Positions 2,209-13,992 of a stretch of DNA of 29,106 bases are shown piece after piece. The stretch covers positions 1 to 29,106 of the forward strand of contig NZ_FZOB01000017.1 in NCBI RefSeq assembly GCF_900188395.1. The letters are read 5' to 3'. The DNA is from Desulfurobacterium atlanticum (GTDB taxonomy: Bacteria; Aquificota; Aquificia; Desulfurobacteriales; Desulfurobacteriaceae). Position numbers and translations under genes: made by a program. Position 1 is the first letter of the stretch, and each line of letters starts with the position of its first letter. Below the pieces are notes generated by a model. That model had not been told where the DNA came from. It worked only from the letters and a program-made list of their open reading frames with translations, and ran no database searches.

Positions 2209-5067
2209 TTAAATGTGAGTAACTGTATATACTGTTAGTGCTGATTGATAGATTATCTGAATTACATCTTTTATTAAAGGCCTCCACATTGTTGGAACAT
2301 TGATTTTTGTAGGAACTATGACGGCATCTCCTGGCTGGAGCTTGTAACTTAGAATTTCAGACTCTTTACTTCCCCAGAGAAATCTTCTGTCTTTGCTGCT
2401 CCATGTAATGAGAGAATATTTTTTCTCGGTTGATGTTACCGTTGTTCCATCAGCTTTTATTATGAAGATGTTTTCTCTGTCTGCGTCTTTTGTGAGGCCA
2501 CCACACATTTTTAGATAATCTTCAACGGTCAATCCTTTGCGGTAAACGATTGCTCCTGGATTGTAAACTTCACCAAAAACAAGAACACTTGATGGAATTT
2601 TAGGAATAATTATCTGGTCTCCATCTTCAAGGAGGATGTTATAGGGAGAGTTTTTCAGTTTTTCAAGATCTTCTGGAACTTTTAGTCCTGTTATCCTTCC
2701 AGAAACCTGAGTTTTCTCCATAAGGTCAAGGAGTTTTCTTTTTGATTCAAAAGCACTCTGTCTTGCCTGAAGTTCCTCTTTTGTAAGGTCGGACTGCATG
2801 ATTCCAGCCTGCTCTTTTTCAAGTTCCTGTCTCATCTGTAAAATAGCTTGAGCGAGATGTTCCTTTTCCATCTGCTTGATAGAATTTCTGAGAATAATTA
2901 TTCCCTGAGGAAATGCTTTCTCTTTAAATCCTCCTGCTGCTTTTAAGACATCGTAAAGGGTTGTTTTTTCTGTAATTTTGAACACACCAGGTCTTTTTAC
3001 ATATCCTGCGACATTTACTTTTTCTACAATCTCTTCAGGAGAAATCTCTTTTATTATTATTCTATCTCCAGGATTTAGTGTTATGTTTGCAGCAGGATTG
3101 TTTTTGATTAGAAGGTCGTACAGATAGATAGTTGAGACACTTCTCTTTATAACTTCTGCTCCTGTTTCAGCTTTGACCTTTATATTTTCTGCCTCTTCAA
3201 CAGCTGCCGCACTTTTCCTTTTAGGTGCTTCCCTAAATATTTCCACTTTTAGGTTTTTTATTTCTCCTTTAAGTTTTACAGAAGCAATAGCAGTTTTAAG
3301 TTTTAGATTATCTCTGTACGGTATGTAGTGGGGGTTTTCCACAAGTCCTGAAACCTTGACAGGAGGATAGACATATTTTGGGTAGAATTTAACGACATCC
3401 AGAGCTTGAAGGTCTATATCTTTTGTTCCGTTTATTATATCTATAGGTGAAAATCTGATAATTTCCTTTATATTAAGAGTTTCAAGGTCTCTTCTGTCTA
3501 TTTCAGCGTAATAAAGGTTAGTGTTTATTGTTAACATATCTTTATTAAGTATTTGGGAAAGTTTCATGCCTGGTTTGTAAGCGTAGACACCCGGGTATTT
3601 AATTTCTCCTTCAACGACGAAAGCATCTTTAACTTTATTGAAATCTACCTTCTTAGTTTCTCCGAATTTGTAGAATACGATTGTGTCTTGAGGTTTAAGG
3701 GCTACATTTTCTTTTCCATTAAGGACATTTTCGGGGATAAAAGTGATATATTGAGGAGGAGTTCCATGTGGAAATTGCCTTATGATAAGTCCAAATTTCA
3801 TATTTGTATCAATAAGGAACATATCTGGAGTGAGTATTTGGGAAAGTTTCATGCCTGGTTTGTAAGCGTAGACACCCGGGTATGCTACATAACCCTTTAC
3901 AAGAACAGCATTTTGGGGAACTGTTATCATTTTCTTGATGATGACAAGATCGCCACTGTGCACTTTTTGAGAGATGAAGTTTTTGTCAGATAGAGATCCC
4001 TCTATAACTTTTGTTACTGTATTGTCAACATACCTTTGGATTGTTACTTTATATTTGTATGCAGATGGTAAAATACCGCCGGCCATATCTATTAAATCTT
4101 TCAGGGTCTCACTTCCCTTAAGTTCGTATATTGCCGGCCTTTTGACAGCACCGCCTATTCCAGCAACTTTTTTAACCGGAGGAATAAAAATTACATCTCC
4201 ATCTTTTAAACGGATATCAACAGGCATACCGTTAAGCAAAAGTTTATAAAAGTCTATCTTTATTGTTTTTAGACCTTTAGGAGTTTGTCTTCTTATAATC
4301 ACATTTCTCAGGCTTCCTGTTCCTTTTATACCTCCTGCCATCATTATTGCATCAATAACGGTGTTTGTTCCTGTTACGATAGTGGCACCGGGTCTATTGA
4401 CCTCTCCAGATACATATACCGGAAATGTTCTAAGTCTTCCAACAGTTAGTTTTATGTTTACCCCAAGAGCTTTAGAGATCTCTTTCTCTGCCTGTCCAAG
4501 TGTTTTTCCCCAGACATAAAAGACTCCAAGCCCTGGTATATAAACCTTTCCTTCCCTATCAACGACAAGTTTTGAAATTTGGGAGAGGTCAATGTTTGGA
4601 GGGTTGCCGATTACGTATATGAAAAGTTCATCCCCCGGTCCCAATACGTAGGTTTTGTCAACAGGTATTGATGTTGTCGGTTTTTTGAAACCTTTAAAGA
4701 AGCTGTAACCAAATTGTTGTAGATATGTTTTGAGAGATTTAGACCTTGCTGCGAAATCTTCTTCAATTGGCGATAATAGTTCCTGTTTTTTTGAGTAAGA
4801 GTTTTTTCTATTTTGCTGTTCAACAAAAAAGTTTGATGTAGCTTCCTTTTCAGAAAGTTTAGGTGAAACTGGAAAACTGTTTGTTCCATTTGAAGTAGTT
4901 TCTATTTTATCTTTTAATGTTGGAAAGTAAGAAGTATAATTGGTGGGGTTTTGAGGTGTTTGTGTGTGTGAAAAAGAGACAGGAAACATCTGCCCGTAAG
5001 CATTTATTATTTTTATATTACAAAAAGTAACAATGGTTGCTATTTTTAGTAGTGTTTTTATCTTCAT
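2209..5067 (-). CDS. Multi-SLBB polysaccharide export protein (Wza-like family)
   Basis: A 952-residue exported protein. Residues 1-25 look like a signal sequence, with no lipobox Cys. A low-complexity Ser/Thr/Asn-rich linker follows (to ~130), then the polysaccharide export domain at ~138-215 (LGPGDELFIYVIG, REGKVYIPGLG). About seven SLBB units come next, each opening with V-x-G-x-V-x-x-P-G (for example VYVSGEVNRPGA at 217, LVKGYVAYPGVY at 389, VVEGEIKYPGVY at 484, VAGYVKRPGVF and VFGEVYNPGAI later). A charged Glu/Gln-rich stretch interrupts the sixth repeat. The last 25 residues are hydrophobic (IIYQSALTVYTV). Wza has about 380 residues, so this is a greatly extended version. It should form or line the periplasmic/outer-membrane export channel. 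Start ATG 5067 overlaps the Wzz-like stop as ATGA. An exact internal DNA repeat is described separately. Confidence 0.88.
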   Translation of the reverse strand: MKIKTLLKIATIVTFCNIKIINAYGQMFPVSFSHTQTPQNPTNYTSYFPTLKDKIETTSNGTNSFPVSPKLSEKEATSNFFVEQQNRKNSYSKKQELLSPIEEDFAARSKSLKTYLQQFGYSFFKGFKKPTTSIPVDKTYVLGPGDELFIYVIGNPPNIDLSQISKLVVDREGKVYIPGLGVFYVWGKTLGQAEKEISKALGVNIKLTVGRLRTFPVYVSGEVNRPGATIVTGTNTVIDAIMMAGGIKGTGSLRNVIIRRQTPKGLKTIKIDFYKLLLNGMPVDIRLKDGDVIFIPPVKKVAGIGGAVKRPAIYELKGSETLKDLIDMAGGILPSAYKYKVTIQRYVDNTVTKVIEGSLSDKNFISQKVHSGDLVIIKKMITVPQNAVLVKGYVAYPGVYAYKPGMKLSQILTPDMFLIDTNMKFGLIIRQFPHGTPPQYITFIPENVLNGKENVALKPQDTIVFYKFGETKKVDFNKVKDAFVVEGEIKYPGVYAYKPGMKLSQILNKDMLTINTNLYYAEIDRRDLETLNIKEIIRFSPIDIINGTKDIDLQALDVVKFYPKYVYPPVKVSGLVENPHYIPYRDNLKLKTAIASVKLKGEIKNLKVEIFREAPKRKSAAAVEEAENIKVKAETGAEVIKRSVSTIYLYDLLIKNNPAANITLNPGDRIIIKEISPEEIVEKVNVAGYVKRPGVFKITEKTTLYDVLKAAGGFKEKAFPQGIIILRNSIKQMEKEHLAQAILQMRQELEKEQAGIMQSDLTKEELQARQSAFESKRKLLDLMEKTQVSGRITGLKVPEDLEKLKNSPYNILLEDGDQIIIPKIPSSVLVFGEVYNPGAIVYRKGLTVEDYLKMCGGLTKDADRENIFIIKADGTTVTSTEKKYSLITWSSKDRRFLWGSKESEILSYKLQPGDAVIVPTKINVPTMWRPLIKDVIQIIYQSALTVYTVTHI
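3548..3883. repeat. Perfect 51-bp direct repeat, two copies 285 bp apart, within the SLBB gene
   Basis: Bases 3548-3598 and 3833-3883 are identical over 51 bp by direct reading. A further 9 identical bases (aacatatct) lie just before each copy, separated from it by a short mismatched stretch. Each copy encodes YPGVYAYKPGMKLSQIL in the same frame, at residues 396-412 and 491-507 (95 residues apart). Identity at every synonymous position, while the flanking SLBB sequence has diverged, indicates recent duplication or gene conversion rather than selection on protein alone. Confidence 0.9.
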
Positions 5068-9018: not shown

Positions 9019-11181
9019 ATGGTAAAAACTTACGCTTACGGCTTTCCGAGGCTTGGAAAGCAGAGAGAGTTTAAAACGCTTATTGAAAGTTACTGGTCAG
9101 GGAAGCTGACAGAGGAAGAGCTTAAAGAGGGAATTAAAAATCTTAACGAAAAAAGGGAAAAAACCTATAGATCTTATGTTGATGCATTTCCTCAAGGGGA
9201 GATGACACTTTACGATAATCTTTTTGATACAGCTCTTATTTTTGGGATTTATAAAGCCGATACTCTTGATGAGTATTTTTCTCTCTGCCGCGGTAAAAAT
9301 GCCCTTGAGATGACAAAATGGTTTAATACCAATTATCACTACCTTGTCCCGGATTTTGAAGGGAAAGAAAAAGAATTTTCCATTTCGTGGAACAAGCATG
9401 AGGAAATAAAAGAGAGCGCTTATCTTATTGGTCCTTTTACTCTTCTTAAACTTTCAAAGAATCTTCCAGAAGGGAAGTTTGCTGCCCTTTTAAAATCTCT
9501 TGCCTGTAAATATGCAGAATACTTTAAGCTTAACGGTTTTAAATCTGTTCATCTTGACGAGCCTGCTTTTGTTATGGAACTTTCTGATAAAGAGATAGAA
9601 GCTATAAAAGATGCTTACTCTGTTTTTGAAGATATTGATACGAAAATAAACGTGTTTACCTATTATGATAGTGTTGATAATCTTCAGTTTGTTTTTGACC
9701 TTCCTGTTGCAGGGGTGGGAATTGACCTTGTTCATGATAGAGGAGAAAACCTTTCACAGCTTGACTCTGTTGATCCTAAAGGTAAAACCCTTTTCGCAGG
9801 TGTTATTGATGGTAGAAATGTGTGGAGAGCAGACCTTTTTGAAAAAGCTGAAATTGTTAAAAAGCTTTCTGAAAAATTTGAAGTTGTAGTGACAAACGCC
9901 GCTCCTCTTTTCCATCTTCCTGTAAATTTAAAAGGAGCTACTCTTCCTGAAGAGCTTGTTGCAAAGGTGGCATTTGCAGAGGAGAAACTTAAAGAACTTA
10001 AACTTATTTCAGATGTTTTAGAAGGTGATGATGCCAAAGCAAAAGAGTGGGTTGAAGGTATAAGTAAAGCTTTTGGTGTGAGGGAGAATGTAAGGGAGAG
10101 AGTTAGAAATCTTACGGATGAGGACTTTAATAAAGCTGTTCCTTATGCTGAAAGAATAAAACTTCAGCAGGAGATTCTCAAACTGCCTCTTTTCCCTACA
10201 ACTACAATAGGAAGTTTTCCTCAGACTCAGGAGGTTAGAAGAGTTAGGCTCCTTAACAGAAAAGGACAGCTTGCAGATGAAGATTACAAAACATTTATAA
10301 AAGGTGAAATAGCCAAGGCTATAAAGATTCAGGAAGAACTTGGTGTTGATGTTTTTGTTCACGGTGAGTTTGAAAGAAGTGATATGGTTGAGTTTTTTGC
10401 CGAGAAGCTTGAAGGAATTGCTACTACAGGTAACGGTTGGGTAATCTCTTACGGGACAAGATCTTACAGGCCACCGATCATATTCGGGGATGTTGAGAGA
10501 ATAGAGCCCATGACTGTTGAAGAGATAGCTTTTGCTCAAAGTCTTACTGATAAACCTGTGAAAGGTATGTTAACAGGCCCTGTAACGATTATAGCGTGGA
10601 GTTACTGCAGGGAGGATATTCCTGTTTCCGAAGTTGCGTATCAAATAGGACTTGCTTTAAGAGATGAGATTGCAGACTATGAGAAGGCAGGTATTAAAAT
10701 TGTTCAGATAGACGAAGCTGCCTTTAGAGAAAAAGCTCCTATCAAGAAAAGAAACTGGGATGAGTATTTTGATTGGGCTGTTAAATCCTTCAGGGTTTGT
10801 CATGCAAAGTCAAAACCTGAAACTCAGATTCATTCTCACATGTGTTATTCAGAATTTGGAGAGATAATTGAGTATATTCTTGCAATGGATTTTGATGTTA
10901 TCTCCATTGAAGCTTCCCGTTCAAAAGGTGACATAATTGAAGCTTTTGAAAAGGTTAACTTTGACAGACAGATAGGTCTTGGTGTGTGGGATATCCACTC
11001 TCCTTATGTTCCTTCTGTTGATGAGATGAAGGAAATTGTTGAGAGAGCACTGAAAGTTATTCCAAAAGAGAACTTCTGGGTTAATCCGGACTGTGGTCTT
11101 AAAACTCGTCGCTGGGAAGAGTGTATCCCTGCAATAAGAAACATTGTTAAACTTGCCAATACTCTTAGAGAGGAGGCGTAA
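9019..11181 (+). CDS. metE: Cobalamin-independent methionine synthase
   Basis: A 720-residue enzyme that transfers the methyl group of 5-methyltetrahydropteroyl-triglutamate to homocysteine, the last step of methionine synthesis, in the cytosol. The double-barrel layout is complete: an N-terminal half beginning TYAYGFPRLGKQREFK, and a C-terminal catalytic half starting at LPLFPTTTIGSFPQT. The zinc/homocysteine ligands are H607 and C609 (HSHMCYSE), E631 (ISIEAS) and C692 (NPDCGLK). Their spacing is identical to H641, C643, E665 and C726 of E. coli MetE. Strong ribosome binding site (AGGAGGAG). The TAA stop overlaps the next start as TAATG, so metE is the first gene of an operon with the class III ribonucleotide reductase. 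Confidence 0.97.
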   Translation: MVKTYAYGFPRLGKQREFKTLIESYWSGKLTEEELKEGIKNLNEKREKTYRSYVDAFPQGEMTLYDNLFDTALIFGIYKADTLDEYFSLCRGKNALEMTKWFNTNYHYLVPDFEGKEKEFSISWNKHEEIKESAYLIGPFTLLKLSKNLPEGKFAALLKSLACKYAEYFKLNGFKSVHLDEPAFVMELSDKEIEAIKDAYSVFEDIDTKINVFTYYDSVDNLQFVFDLPVAGVGIDLVHDRGENLSQLDSVDPKGKTLFAGVIDGRNVWRADLFEKAEIVKKLSEKFEVVVTNAAPLFHLPVNLKGATLPEELVAKVAFAEEKLKELKLISDVLEGDDAKAKEWVEGISKAFGVRENVRERVRNLTDEDFNKAVPYAERIKLQQEILKLPLFPTTTIGSFPQTQEVRRVRLLNRKGQLADEDYKTFIKGEIAKAIKIQEELGVDVFVHGEFERSDMVEFFAEKLEGIATTGNGWVISYGTRSYRPPIIFGDVERIEPMTVEEIAFAQSLTDKPVKGMLTGPVTIIAWSYCREDIPVSEVAYQIGLALRDEIADYEKAGIKIVQIDEAAFREKAPIKKRNWDEYFDWAVKSFRVCHAKSKPETQIHSHMCYSEFGEIIEYILAMDFDVISIEASRSKGDIIEAFEKVNFDRQIGLGVWDIHSPYVPSVDEMKEIVERALKVIPKENFWVNPDCGLKTRRWEECIPAIRNIVKLANTLREEA

Positions 11182-11855
11182 TGCCCCTCTCCCCTTTTCT
11201 TGATGTTGACACTCCGATTACTTTTAAAGATCAACCTGGTGTTCAGTCAGCAGTTCTATACACGCACATACCCCTATGCAACCTTGAATGCTTTCAGTGC
11301 CATAATAAAGCCGGATTTGACCCATCTACTCAATTTGCTTCTTATGAAAAACTATTAGATAAACTTAATAAATTAAAACTTCTTGGTGTTGAATTGATAA
11401 TTGTATCTGGAGGAGAACCTCTACTTGAAAAAAGACTCAAGGAAGGTTTAAAATTTATCAAACAGTTAGGATTTTCTGTTAGAGTAGATACAAACGGCAC
11501 ATTGCCTGAAACAATAGAGCAGTTAATCAGGGAAAAAGTGGTGGATGGTTTTGCTTTGGATGTTAAAATTCCCATAAAATCTGTCTATTTTGATGACGAA
11601 ATTGAACGTTTTAATGAGATTTTATACTCAAAAAAAGAAAAAAACGAAAAGAAAATTAAGCTTTATGTTCAGAAAATAAAAAAATCTATAGAAAAAATTA
11701 AGAAACTTGCTATTGCAAATGATTTTCAATATACTATATTAAGAACAGTGAAATATCCTCTTCTAAAAGAGGAGGATATAGAAGAGATAAAGAGATTTGT
11801 GAGAGAAACGGGAATACCGTTTCAACTTAATCCTTTCTACCCTGTGGAGGCGTGA
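11181..11855 (+). CDS. nrdG: Anaerobic ribonucleotide reductase activating protein (radical SAM)
   Basis: A 224-residue radical-SAM activase. Its [4Fe-4S] cluster cleaves S-adenosylmethionine to install the glycyl radical on NrdD. The cluster motif CNLECFQC gives C33, C37 and C40 (C-x3-C-x2-C), followed by HNKAGFDP. The SAM-binding region SGGEPLLE is at ~76-83, and VDTNG and ALDVKIP follow. A Lys-rich insertion lies at ~150-180. Length and motifs fit the NrdG2/PflA-type activases paired with archaeal/Thermotoga-like NrdD. Start ATG 11181 overlaps the metE stop and its own TGA overlaps the nrdD start. Pairing with the next two genes makes the assignment firm, though sequence alone would also allow a generic glycyl-radical activase. 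Confidence 0.9.
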   Translation: MPLSPFLDVDTPITFKDQPGVQSAVLYTHIPLCNLECFQCHNKAGFDPSTQFASYEKLLDKLNKLKLLGVELIIVSGGEPLLEKRLKEGLKFIKQLGFSVRVDTNGTLPETIEQLIREKVVDGFALDVKIPIKSVYFDDEIERFNEILYSKKEKNEKKIKLYVQKIKKSIEKIKKLAIANDFQYTILRTVKYPLLKEEDIEEIKRFVRETGIPFQLNPFYPVEA

Positions 11856-13399
11856 TGAACAGATATTTCAGACTGATAGACCTTTTTATCGGTAATGATG
11901 ATATAGCAAGGAATAATGCTAACTTTGTCAGAGGAATACCTACTCTTGAACATGTTGTTGTCGGTGAAGTTATGAAAGATTACCTTTTTGATGTTATTTA
12001 TGATGGCCTTCCTGTAAGGATTCATCATGAAGAAGGATGGGCTTACCATCACCAAACTTATAGGCTTTCTGCTTACTGTATAGGTTTATCTTCAAAGGAT
12101 ATAGCTTTTTACGGTTTAAGAAGTAATGCGAAGAATGAAAGAAGAGCCGCGCCTCCGAAAAGACTTGAGACCCTTTTTATGCAGTGTGCAAATCTTATAT
12201 GTCTTGTTGCACAGGAGGTTTCAGGTGCCACATCACTTAACGATATCTCTACTGTAGCAGCCGGTTATCTTTACCATATGGAGAAAACCGGGAAAAAGAG
12301 ATATACGGACTATGAGCTTGAGAACATCTGGCAGGAGTTTTTGTATAACATAAATCTTCCGTTTAGAAGCGGAAACTCACCGTTTTCAAATATAACTCTT
12401 GATTTTGCTAAGCCGAATTCAAGGCTGAGAAAGGAACCTGTTATCTATGCCGGAGAGTTGCTCTCTTACACTTACGGAGATATTCCATCTGAATATTTTG
12501 ACAGAATAAATGAAGCTTTTATAAAAGCGATGAAAAGAGGGGATGCAGATAGTAATCCGTTTACTTTCCCTCTTATAACTGTGAATGTAACGGACGATTT
12601 TGATAAAGATAACCCTGCATGGAAGATGCTTTTAAAAGAGTCTGAATATTTTGGCGGTTTCTATGTTCAAAACTATAAAACTGCTCCGTTTGAAAAAGAC
12701 TCTGTCTATAAGAAGAAAAATCCTTATATAAAACCTTTTGATGAAGGGATGATTTACTCAAACTGCTGCAGGATGCTTTTTGATATTTCTCAGGTTGAGG
12801 CGGTTACAGGTTCAAATCCTTTCCATTCAGGTTCTGGAGTTGGTGGTATAGGTGTGTATGCCATCAATATGAACAGGCTTTTGTTCCTTGCGAAAACAGA
12901 CTTTGATCTATTAACGGCGATGATAGATTATGTTATGGATGTAGGAGCAAAAGCTCTACAGAGAAAAAGGGAGTGGCTGAAAAAACACTGGAACGATTTA
13001 TTCCCTTATTTATCTTTCTATCAGAAAGATGATAAATCTCTCTTTAACATTTTCTCAGTTGTTGGTGTTCACGAGGGAATGGTTAATGCTGGCTTTGAAG
13101 GTGGATTGTTTAATGATGAGGCAAAAGATTACGCTCACCGTATAGCTCAGTATCTTTATAAAAAGCTCCATGAGTTTATGGCAAGGGATCAGGTTCTTTA
13201 TTCTCTTGAATACGCTCCTTCAGAAAATGCTGCCTGCAGGATGGCAGAAAAGGATATCTCTTTTGCAAATGCTGTGGCTGAGGTTCTTTCTGGAGAGAGA
13301 GAAAAAGAACTTTCAGTTGATCCGGAACTTAATAGATTTATAGATAGAGCTCTTGAAAAGTTTGGAGAGCGTATATTTGATATACCGGTTGGGAGGTGA
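11855..13399 (+). CDS. nrdD: Class III (anaerobic) ribonucleotide reductase, N-terminal fragment with the catalytic barrel
   Basis: A 514-residue piece holding the ten-stranded barrel of NrdD, which reduces ribonucleotides to deoxyribonucleotides without oxygen. There is no N-terminal ATP-cone. Features include Cys-75 in RLSAYCIGLSS (a candidate for the top-of-barrel cysteine), ATSLNDIST (~125-133), NLPFRSGNSPFSNITLDF, YSNCCRMLFD (Cys-304/305), and the late SLEYAPSENAACRMAEKD followed by FGERIFDIPVG just before the stop. GTG at 11852 is a possible start, but ATG 11855, overlapping the nrdG TGA and 4 nt after GGAGG, is better placed. The frame ends at TGA 13397-13399; the remainder of NrdD follows in the same frame as a separate gene. 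Alone this piece lacks the glycyl radical and cannot be active. Confidence 0.9.
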   Translation: MNRYFRLIDLFIGNDDIARNNANFVRGIPTLEHVVVGEVMKDYLFDVIYDGLPVRIHHEEGWAYHHQTYRLSAYCIGLSSKDIAFYGLRSNAKNERRAAPPKRLETLFMQCANLICLVAQEVSGATSLNDISTVAAGYLYHMEKTGKKRYTDYELENIWQEFLYNINLPFRSGNSPFSNITLDFAKPNSRLRKEPVIYAGELLSYTYGDIPSEYFDRINEAFIKAMKRGDADSNPFTFPLITVNVTDDFDKDNPAWKMLLKESEYFGGFYVQNYKTAPFEKDSVYKKKNPYIKPFDEGMIYSNCCRMLFDISQVEAVTGSNPFHSGSGVGGIGVYAINMNRLLFLAKTDFDLLTAMIDYVMDVGAKALQRKREWLKKHWNDLFPYLSFYQKDDKSLFNIFSVVGVHEGMVNAGFEGGLFNDEAKDYAHRIAQYLYKKLHEFMARDQVLYSLEYAPSENAACRMAEKDISFANAVAEVLSGEREKELSVDPELNRFIDRALEKFGERIFDIPVGR

Positions 13400-13405
13400 T
13401 TTAAG
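13391..13405 (+). promoter_or_regulatory. Exceptionally strong ribosome binding site overlapping the nrdD stop codon
   Basis: GGAGGTGAT (13392-13400) matches nine consecutive bases of the usual complement of the 16S rRNA 3' end and lies 5 nt before ATG 13406. The TGA stop of the first nrdD piece (13397-13399) is inside it. This decides that the second piece has its own start and argues for termination-reinitiation rather than a sequencing error. Confidence 0.85.
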
Positions 13406-13939
13406 ATGGAAAAGACACAAAGAATTAAACCCAAAATCTGCGTGAATGGGGACCCTTCTTCAAGAAAAGTGTTTTTAACTTCAGGATTTCAGGCTCCATT
13501 TCAGGAGAAAGATCTTTTAGCACAGATAGACGTCAATTCTCACTTTCAAAGTTATGCTACAGGCGGGAGTATTTTTCACCTTTTCACGGCTGAAGAGATG
13601 ACACCGGAAGAGCAGGAGAAGTTGATATTTAACATCATTGATAATTTTCCTATTCAGTATCTTACAAAAACTCCATTTCTTACAACGTGTAATACCTGTG
13701 GGCATAAAATGGTTGGGAGAAAAACTGCGTGTGAAAGATGCAGTTCTGAGGATGTGACATTATGGTCAAGGCCAATAGGTTACTTTAGACCTGTTATGAG
13801 GGGTAAGATTTCTAAAGATTTTAAAGAAGCAAACTATCTTTTCTGGTTAAACGGCAGGGTGGAAGATTTTGCCACAAGGAAGGAAGTTAAAAAGGAAGAT
13901 GTTGAGCATATTCTTGAGGAATTAAATTCAATGATTTAA
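13406..13939 (+). CDS. nrdD: Class III ribonucleotide reductase, C-terminal fragment with zinc site and glycyl radical loop
   Basis: A 177-residue protein forming the C-terminal part of NrdD. The order is RIKPKICVNGDPSS and KVFLTSGFQAPFQEKDLLAQ, then SYATGGSIFHL (~49-59), the zinc ribbon CNTCGHK and CERC (C95, C98, C109, C112), and the radical loop SRPIGYFRPV with G125 as the expected glycyl-radical residue. It must associate with the upstream piece to make an active enzyme; NrdG would act on G125. It lies in the same reading frame as the first piece, with only TGA-TTT-AAG between them, and no conserved NrdD sequence seems to be missing at the junction. Followed by the operon terminator. Confidence 0.9.
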   Translation: MEKTQRIKPKICVNGDPSSRKVFLTSGFQAPFQEKDLLAQIDVNSHFQSYATGGSIFHLFTAEEMTPEEQEKLIFNIIDNFPIQYLTKTPFLTTCNTCGHKMVGRKTACERCSSEDVTLWSRPIGYFRPVMRGKISKDFKEANYLFWLNGRVEDFATRKEVKKEDVEHILEELNSMI

Positions 13940-13962: not shown

Positions 13963-13989
13963 AGAGCCCCTTAGTAAGGGGCTCTTTTT
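13963..13989 (+). terminator. Rho-independent terminator after nrdD
   Basis: AGAGCCCCTTA (13963-13973) pairs with TAAGGGGCTCT (13975-13985), giving a GC-rich stem with a short loop, followed directly by a T-run (ttttattttg). It ends the metE-nrdG-nrdD unit. Confidence 0.92.
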
Positions 13990-13992
13990 ATT

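Follow-up and report, generated by a model that had tools for sequence, protein, structure and literature searches.

Desulfurobacteriaceae encode the class III ribonucleotide reductase NrdD in two cistrons

A 29,106-nucleotide stretch of DNA from Desulfurobacterium atlanticum (here, the window) very probably encodes a functional class III ribonucleotide reductase (RNR), the anaerobic and oxygen-sensitive kind, whose catalytic protein, NrdD, is made from two cistrons that belong to a single operon, nrdG-nrdD(N)-nrdD(C); that the two products assemble and are active is what we infer. RNRs supply the building blocks of DNA and are required for DNA synthesis; class III NrdD has been described as a homodimer of single chains. 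The sequence-only reading of this stretch had proposed a working two-subunit enzyme, and that proposal is now strongly supported by conservation across the Desulfurobacteriaceae, a family of heat-loving anaerobic bacteria, by the ribosome-binding site of the C cistron, by purifying selection on both halves, and by the fact that no other RNR was found in the window's genus.

All genes of the operon lie on the + strand and are tightly spaced. Upstream is a gene for an NrdG-type radical-SAM activase (11181..11855; 224 amino acids; Pfam Radical_SAM PF04055, 5.9e-16), the stop of which overlaps the nrdD-N start at 11855. Its best NCBIfam match is NrdG2 (TIGR02495) at 113.9 bits, below the cut-off of 131; a neighboring activase gene is also found in relatives and viral contigs. 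The genes for the N subunit (11855..13399; 514 amino acids; Pfam NRDD 4.6e-61) and the C subunit (13406..13939; 177 amino acids; 6.3e-21) both belong to the NRDD family by sequence similarity, exceeding the curated cut-off of PF13597 and covering consecutive stretches of its profile (2-427 and 437-547 of 562). Against the NCBIfam equivalog TIGR02487, of which each piece covers a part, N scores 158.8 and C 69.7, below the cut-off of 326.35.

The N ORF ends in IFDIPVGR, with the gene end GGGAGGTGA followed by TTTAAG and then by the ATG of the C ORF, which begins MEKTQRIKPKICVNGD. The coordinates and ORFs agree with the earlier description of two NrdD pieces in the same frame with TGA-TTT-AAG between them, as does the position of the stop codon (13397-13399, + strand) inside a Shine-Dalgarno-like GGAGGTGAT (13392-13400, + strand), 5 nt upstream of the C ATG. 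This element occurs once in the window, both strands having been scanned, and none of the 20 window gene starts checked has a longer match to the anti-Shine-Dalgarno complement. The 3′ end of 16S rRNA was not found in the window's genome (G000; G and L numbers are our handles for genomes and loci); GGATCACCTCCTTT is present in four other genomes of the family. Just 3′ of the C gene lies a terminator-like hairpin with a T-run (13968..13990, + strand), one of a class that is not above background in the window (5 found versus a shuffled mean of 3.5).

The division of labor between the two pieces differs from that given in the sequence-only reading. The N subunit holds most of the alpha/beta barrel and the finger-loop cysteines and is without an ATP-cone; the last strand(s) of the barrel belong to the C subunit, as do the zinc site and the glycyl-radical loop. 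An AlphaFold2 model of the read-through chain, containing both pieces, reached pLDDT 87.4 and pTM 0.90; in it the TGA was read as W for modeling only, the alignment combined separate N and C rows with fused viral NrdD, and a joined chain does not test binding of separate chains. Residues 1-679 of the model superpose on the class III RNR 8p2s (Z 30.0, rmsd 2.6, 552 residues aligned), and the joined model also superposes on 4u3e (Z 29.1), in keeping with the barrel fold. The longest stretch below pLDDT 50 is residues 512-522, spanning the junction. In NrdD, the zinc ribbon comes after the last barrel strand (PMC4493059), and model strands 574-578 and 602-607 fall in the C piece; the cut therefore lies inside the barrel. 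The sequence-only reading had placed the break after the barrel end, which is wrong, and had described the radical loop as separated from the active-site barrel, which is inaccurate, since C carries barrel strand(s) too. The C piece is an obligate subunit and not a clean radical domain. Modeled alone, on a shallow alignment of only nine rows, it reached pLDDT 39.1, a low order that would fit, and does not prove, a need for N in order to fold.

Among the alternatives, the one that fares best is that C is a repair part or an exchangeable radical carrier and not simply half of an enzyme. It is a separate protein with a zinc site and a radical glycine, and the authors of work on YfiD, a known spare part of pyruvate formate-lyase, speculate about others and suggest such parts for further glycyl-radical enzymes (PMC8683613). 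However, the window's genome contains a single NRDD place, the split gene itself, and no full-length NrdD to repair; the barrel strand(s) in C and its poor order when modeled by itself also speak against the idea, and we consider it improbable.

Of 22 family genomes, 21, from seven genera, encode the C piece in an ORF of its own, the exception being a gene that runs into a contig end; the search of related genomes for split NrdD, suggested with the earlier reading, was thus run, and relatives are not all fused. Two cistrons throughout the family stand in place of a single catalytic polypeptide, making this a split variant. It is in the four genomes of the window's genus, and nowhere else in the family, that N and C share one frame; the stop there is TGA, TAA or TAA-TGA. 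Throughout the 17 genomes of the six other genera the frames differ, and most of the gene pairs overlap by about 11 to 17 nt, with the exceptions of one 1-nt gap, one of 61 nt and one of 337 nt. Eighteen of the 21 family junctions have GGAGG 4 to 8 nt upstream of the C ATG. The single stop in the window is the local form of this family-wide two-gene arrangement. The 337-nt gap (G013, L019) contains two small ORFs (L019 2043-2363, - strand) with hydrophobic, membrane-like sequences and no match above a curated family cut-off.

A split at the window's break position was not seen beyond the Desulfurobacteriaceae and related viral contigs among the matches listed, 20 of those genomes having been read; phage and plasmid records searched with the C piece gave distant NrdD only, annotated as NrdD genes, and no close relative. 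Inteins are present in some N subunits of the family (L086, L087, L088 and L093), between the finger-loop cysteines SNC/CRM (Pfam Intein_splicing and LAGLIDADG) and, in G004 and G021, before Cys75. An intein at the break itself was considered and rejected: there is no insert there, and the relatives' inteins are at these two other sites.

Contigs in IMG/VR, viral by that collection's own classification, carry the same NrdD split at 56 to 76% identity. The halves adjoin in L124, and in two others (L123, 4659-5354; L203, 2697-3350) the radical-SAM activase gene lies between them; therefore, the halves need not be translated in succession. On other viral contigs (L140, L160, L198 and L201), NrdD has a C-terminal glutaredoxin/thioredoxin-like fusion, for which a family match was run on L140 alone (Glutaredoxin).

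These junctions also bear on whether the TGA might be programmed for read-through, or for selenocysteine, to give a full-length NrdD. The window does have one in-frame TGA between the pieces, and the joined chain folds well in the model, but congeners have TAA or TAA-TGA at this point, the C ORF is out of frame in the 17 other family genomes, and viral copies have another gene between the halves. With no conserved in-frame TGA among relatives, we reject this explanation as very improbable, although the one in-frame stop found in the window's genus may allow low-level read-through. That an nrdD otherwise fused was recently broken by a nonsense mutation, or only seems broken through a sequencing error, as the window alone with its two ORFs, one frame and single stop might suggest, has next to no chance of being correct and is refuted by the family junctions: as the sequence-only reading had argued against a random mutation, all 21 family genomes with the C piece carry two ORFs, with varied stops, frames or intervening genes, and dN/dS is as low for C as for N.

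The N subunit has the finger-loop cysteine motif SNCCRM (12758..12775, + strand), of which C304, C305 and R306 are invariant when aligned with fused NrdD. In the C subunit, the four zinc-binding cysteines CNTC...CERC (13688..13741, + strand) and the glycyl-radical loop SRPIGYFRPV (13766..13795, + strand) are invariant in nine C pieces; the predicted radical glycine is codon 13778-13780, and the loop R and G are invariant against fused NrdD. The identity of the split NrdD to well-known NrdD is low. Every widely conserved NrdD residue is present in the split pieces, including the finger-loop cysteines, zinc ribbon and glycyl loop of class III, and the suggestion that no conserved sequence is lost at the break was borne out by alignments in which every conserved column is kept. 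Within the window's genus, dN/dS, where calculable, was 0.011 to 0.023 for N and 0.018 to 0.024 for C, and since several of these comparisons are near synonymous saturation, they are read as strong purifying selection and not as exact values.

None of the four genomes of the window's genus has a match to PF02867 (class I/II large subunit) or PF17975 (monomeric class II), and PF02867 matches are present in the other six Desulfurobacteriaceae genera. Judged from these two Pfam families and from assemblies up to 99.7% complete (that of the window's genome is 1.74 Mb and 99.7% complete), the two-piece NrdD appears to be the sole RNR of the genus. An RNR is essential and no other was found in the genus; therefore, the two-gene enzyme must be functional there, and this is the strongest argument for function. 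A dead enzyme, its C gene a remnant in decay, can practically be dismissed: nothing was found in its favor, and dN/dS near 0.02, conserved catalytic residues and the lack of any other RNR found in the genus stand against it.

How did the split arise? In a maximum-likelihood tree of 35 rows, rooted at the midpoint and with some long branches, the 13 split forms make up one clade (support 100/100) with fused relatives around it and the viral copies outermost within it; this pattern is explained if a fused ancestral gene was broken once. Among single-chain homologues, the second-type NrdD of other Aquificota (for example, L069 and L074) come nearest. They have about 40% identity over their whole length, the same conserved residues and the same C-terminal tail, but are one ORF of 666 to 701 amino acids and are without the extra N helix and the new C leader. 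By alignment with fused NrdD, the break falls in a variable linker; in the split forms, N has been extended at its end by about 25 residues that include a conserved helix, and C has acquired a short leader. The helix (residues 490-508; 13322..13378, + strand), confident in the model, is kept among split forms, is missing in the fused relatives and is a candidate docking element.

The two-cistron NrdD very probably came about and works as follows. One ancestral break in a variable loop divided a formerly single-chain NrdD. The finger-loop cysteine and the greater part of the barrel come from N, whereas C contributes the zinc ribbon and glycine loop together with the last strand(s) of the barrel. 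For the C cistron, ribosomes would use a strong Shine-Dalgarno site of its own, located here at the end of the N gene, either by reinitiation or by fresh initiation at the overlapping ribosome-binding site. The subunits would assemble into one NrdD-like N+C unit, presumably within a dimer; the adjacent NrdG would make the glycyl radical on C, and reduction would presumably proceed as in ordinary NrdD. The termination-reinitiation first proposed for this junction is partly supported: it agrees with the junctions of the window's genus and with the gene overlaps seen elsewhere, but it does not account for the 337-nt gap with its ORFs in G013 or for the activase gene between the viral halves of L123 and L203. 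These cases show that translation of the C cistron can begin independently.

Distinct from the window's break, another kind of split turned up in a wider sample. There, the NrdD body stops beyond the zinc site, and the glycyl-radical loop is a stand-alone ORF of about 50 to 80 amino acids, usually just downstream (L063, 1177-3460; L117, 2456-4829; L120, 2513-4800; L097-L113). Many NrdD bodies among the matches listed end at about profile position 525-536, and a convincing separate glycine-loop ORF lies just downstream or nearby in 14 of 20 loci, with a looser one in L115. Loop tails are also found in L102 (nearby) and L110 (about 1.6 kb away); none was found in the fetched stretches of L105 and L116, and G279, the genome of L105, has a separate loop match further downstream than the L105 stretch. 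In the Cupriavidus necator H16 plasmid pHG1 (L117), the NrdD body and a 66-amino-acid loop ORF are both annotated in the record, as is a 58-amino-acid loop ORF in Sulfuricurvum kujiense pSULKU01 (L120); Acidiphilium (L119) and Geoalkalibacter (L118) have fused forms.

Related arrangements were seen elsewhere. G135, from the same order and another family, has a 51-amino-acid loop ORF (L067, 2058-2213) beside an activase-like radical-SAM gene, and its intein-bearing NrdD body (L066, 3356-6832) is on a different contig. Two viral contigs have an NrdD body without the radical loop and a loop-like sequence downstream, about 90 nt away in L134 (body 3001-4752, loop 4840-4941) and 2 kb away in L154 (body 3001-4632, loop 6676-6783). 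A whole-length NrdD together with an extra loop-only ORF occurs in G203 (C3:59436-59546) and G372 (C52:6064-6159); these loop-only ORFs are possibly spare-part proteins.

The earlier suggestion that a damaged radical subunit could be exchanged is speculation. It would have the C subunit leave after oxygen damage to the glycyl radical and a fresh C take its place, with the separate origins of split bacterial NrdD reflecting selection for such repair; we regard this as unlikely. If it were true, an essential enzyme of DNA synthesis would be repaired by subunit swap. Together with the stand-alone glycyl-radical ORFs elsewhere, radical-subunit exchange becomes a testable question, and the two-gene enzyme offers a system, found in nature, in which radical storage and catalysis can be taken apart. 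An obligate two-gene and seemingly sole RNR indicates that a barrel cut ahead of its last strand(s) can remain functional. Annotation pipelines may label such genes partial or name both pieces alike.

No description of a split cellular NrdD was found in the open-licence literature searched. For class II, there is a precedent for a split cellular RNR in NrdJa/NrdJb of Pseudomonas aeruginosa, called the only instance in a non-viral organism, in which two operon-encoded polypeptides are both needed (PMC4520616). That is a B12 enzyme, however, and NrdJb is a cysteine-rich reductant domain with neither the radical site nor a part of the barrel; the class II catalytic subunit family, PF02867, was not matched in the window's genus. 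YfiD/GrcA is likewise a small separate protein carrying a radical glycine, but it supplements a complete enzyme of the same kind after oxygen damage (PMC8683613), whereas the C piece of NrdD is a permanent half with barrel strand(s) and, in the window's genome, has no complete NrdD alongside. Phage nrdD genes in more than one coding piece have been listed, for example, in Aeromonas phage phiAS4; these are ascribed to introns, inteins or unknown fragmentation in single phages and are not conserved in a cellular family (PMC3653736). The loop-ORF NrdD, such as that of Cupriavidus necator pHG1, is also a two-gene class III RNR, but there the zinc ribbon and the glycine loop fall on opposite sides of the break, and the NrdD is of a different subtype, whose core is preceded by an N-terminal domain.
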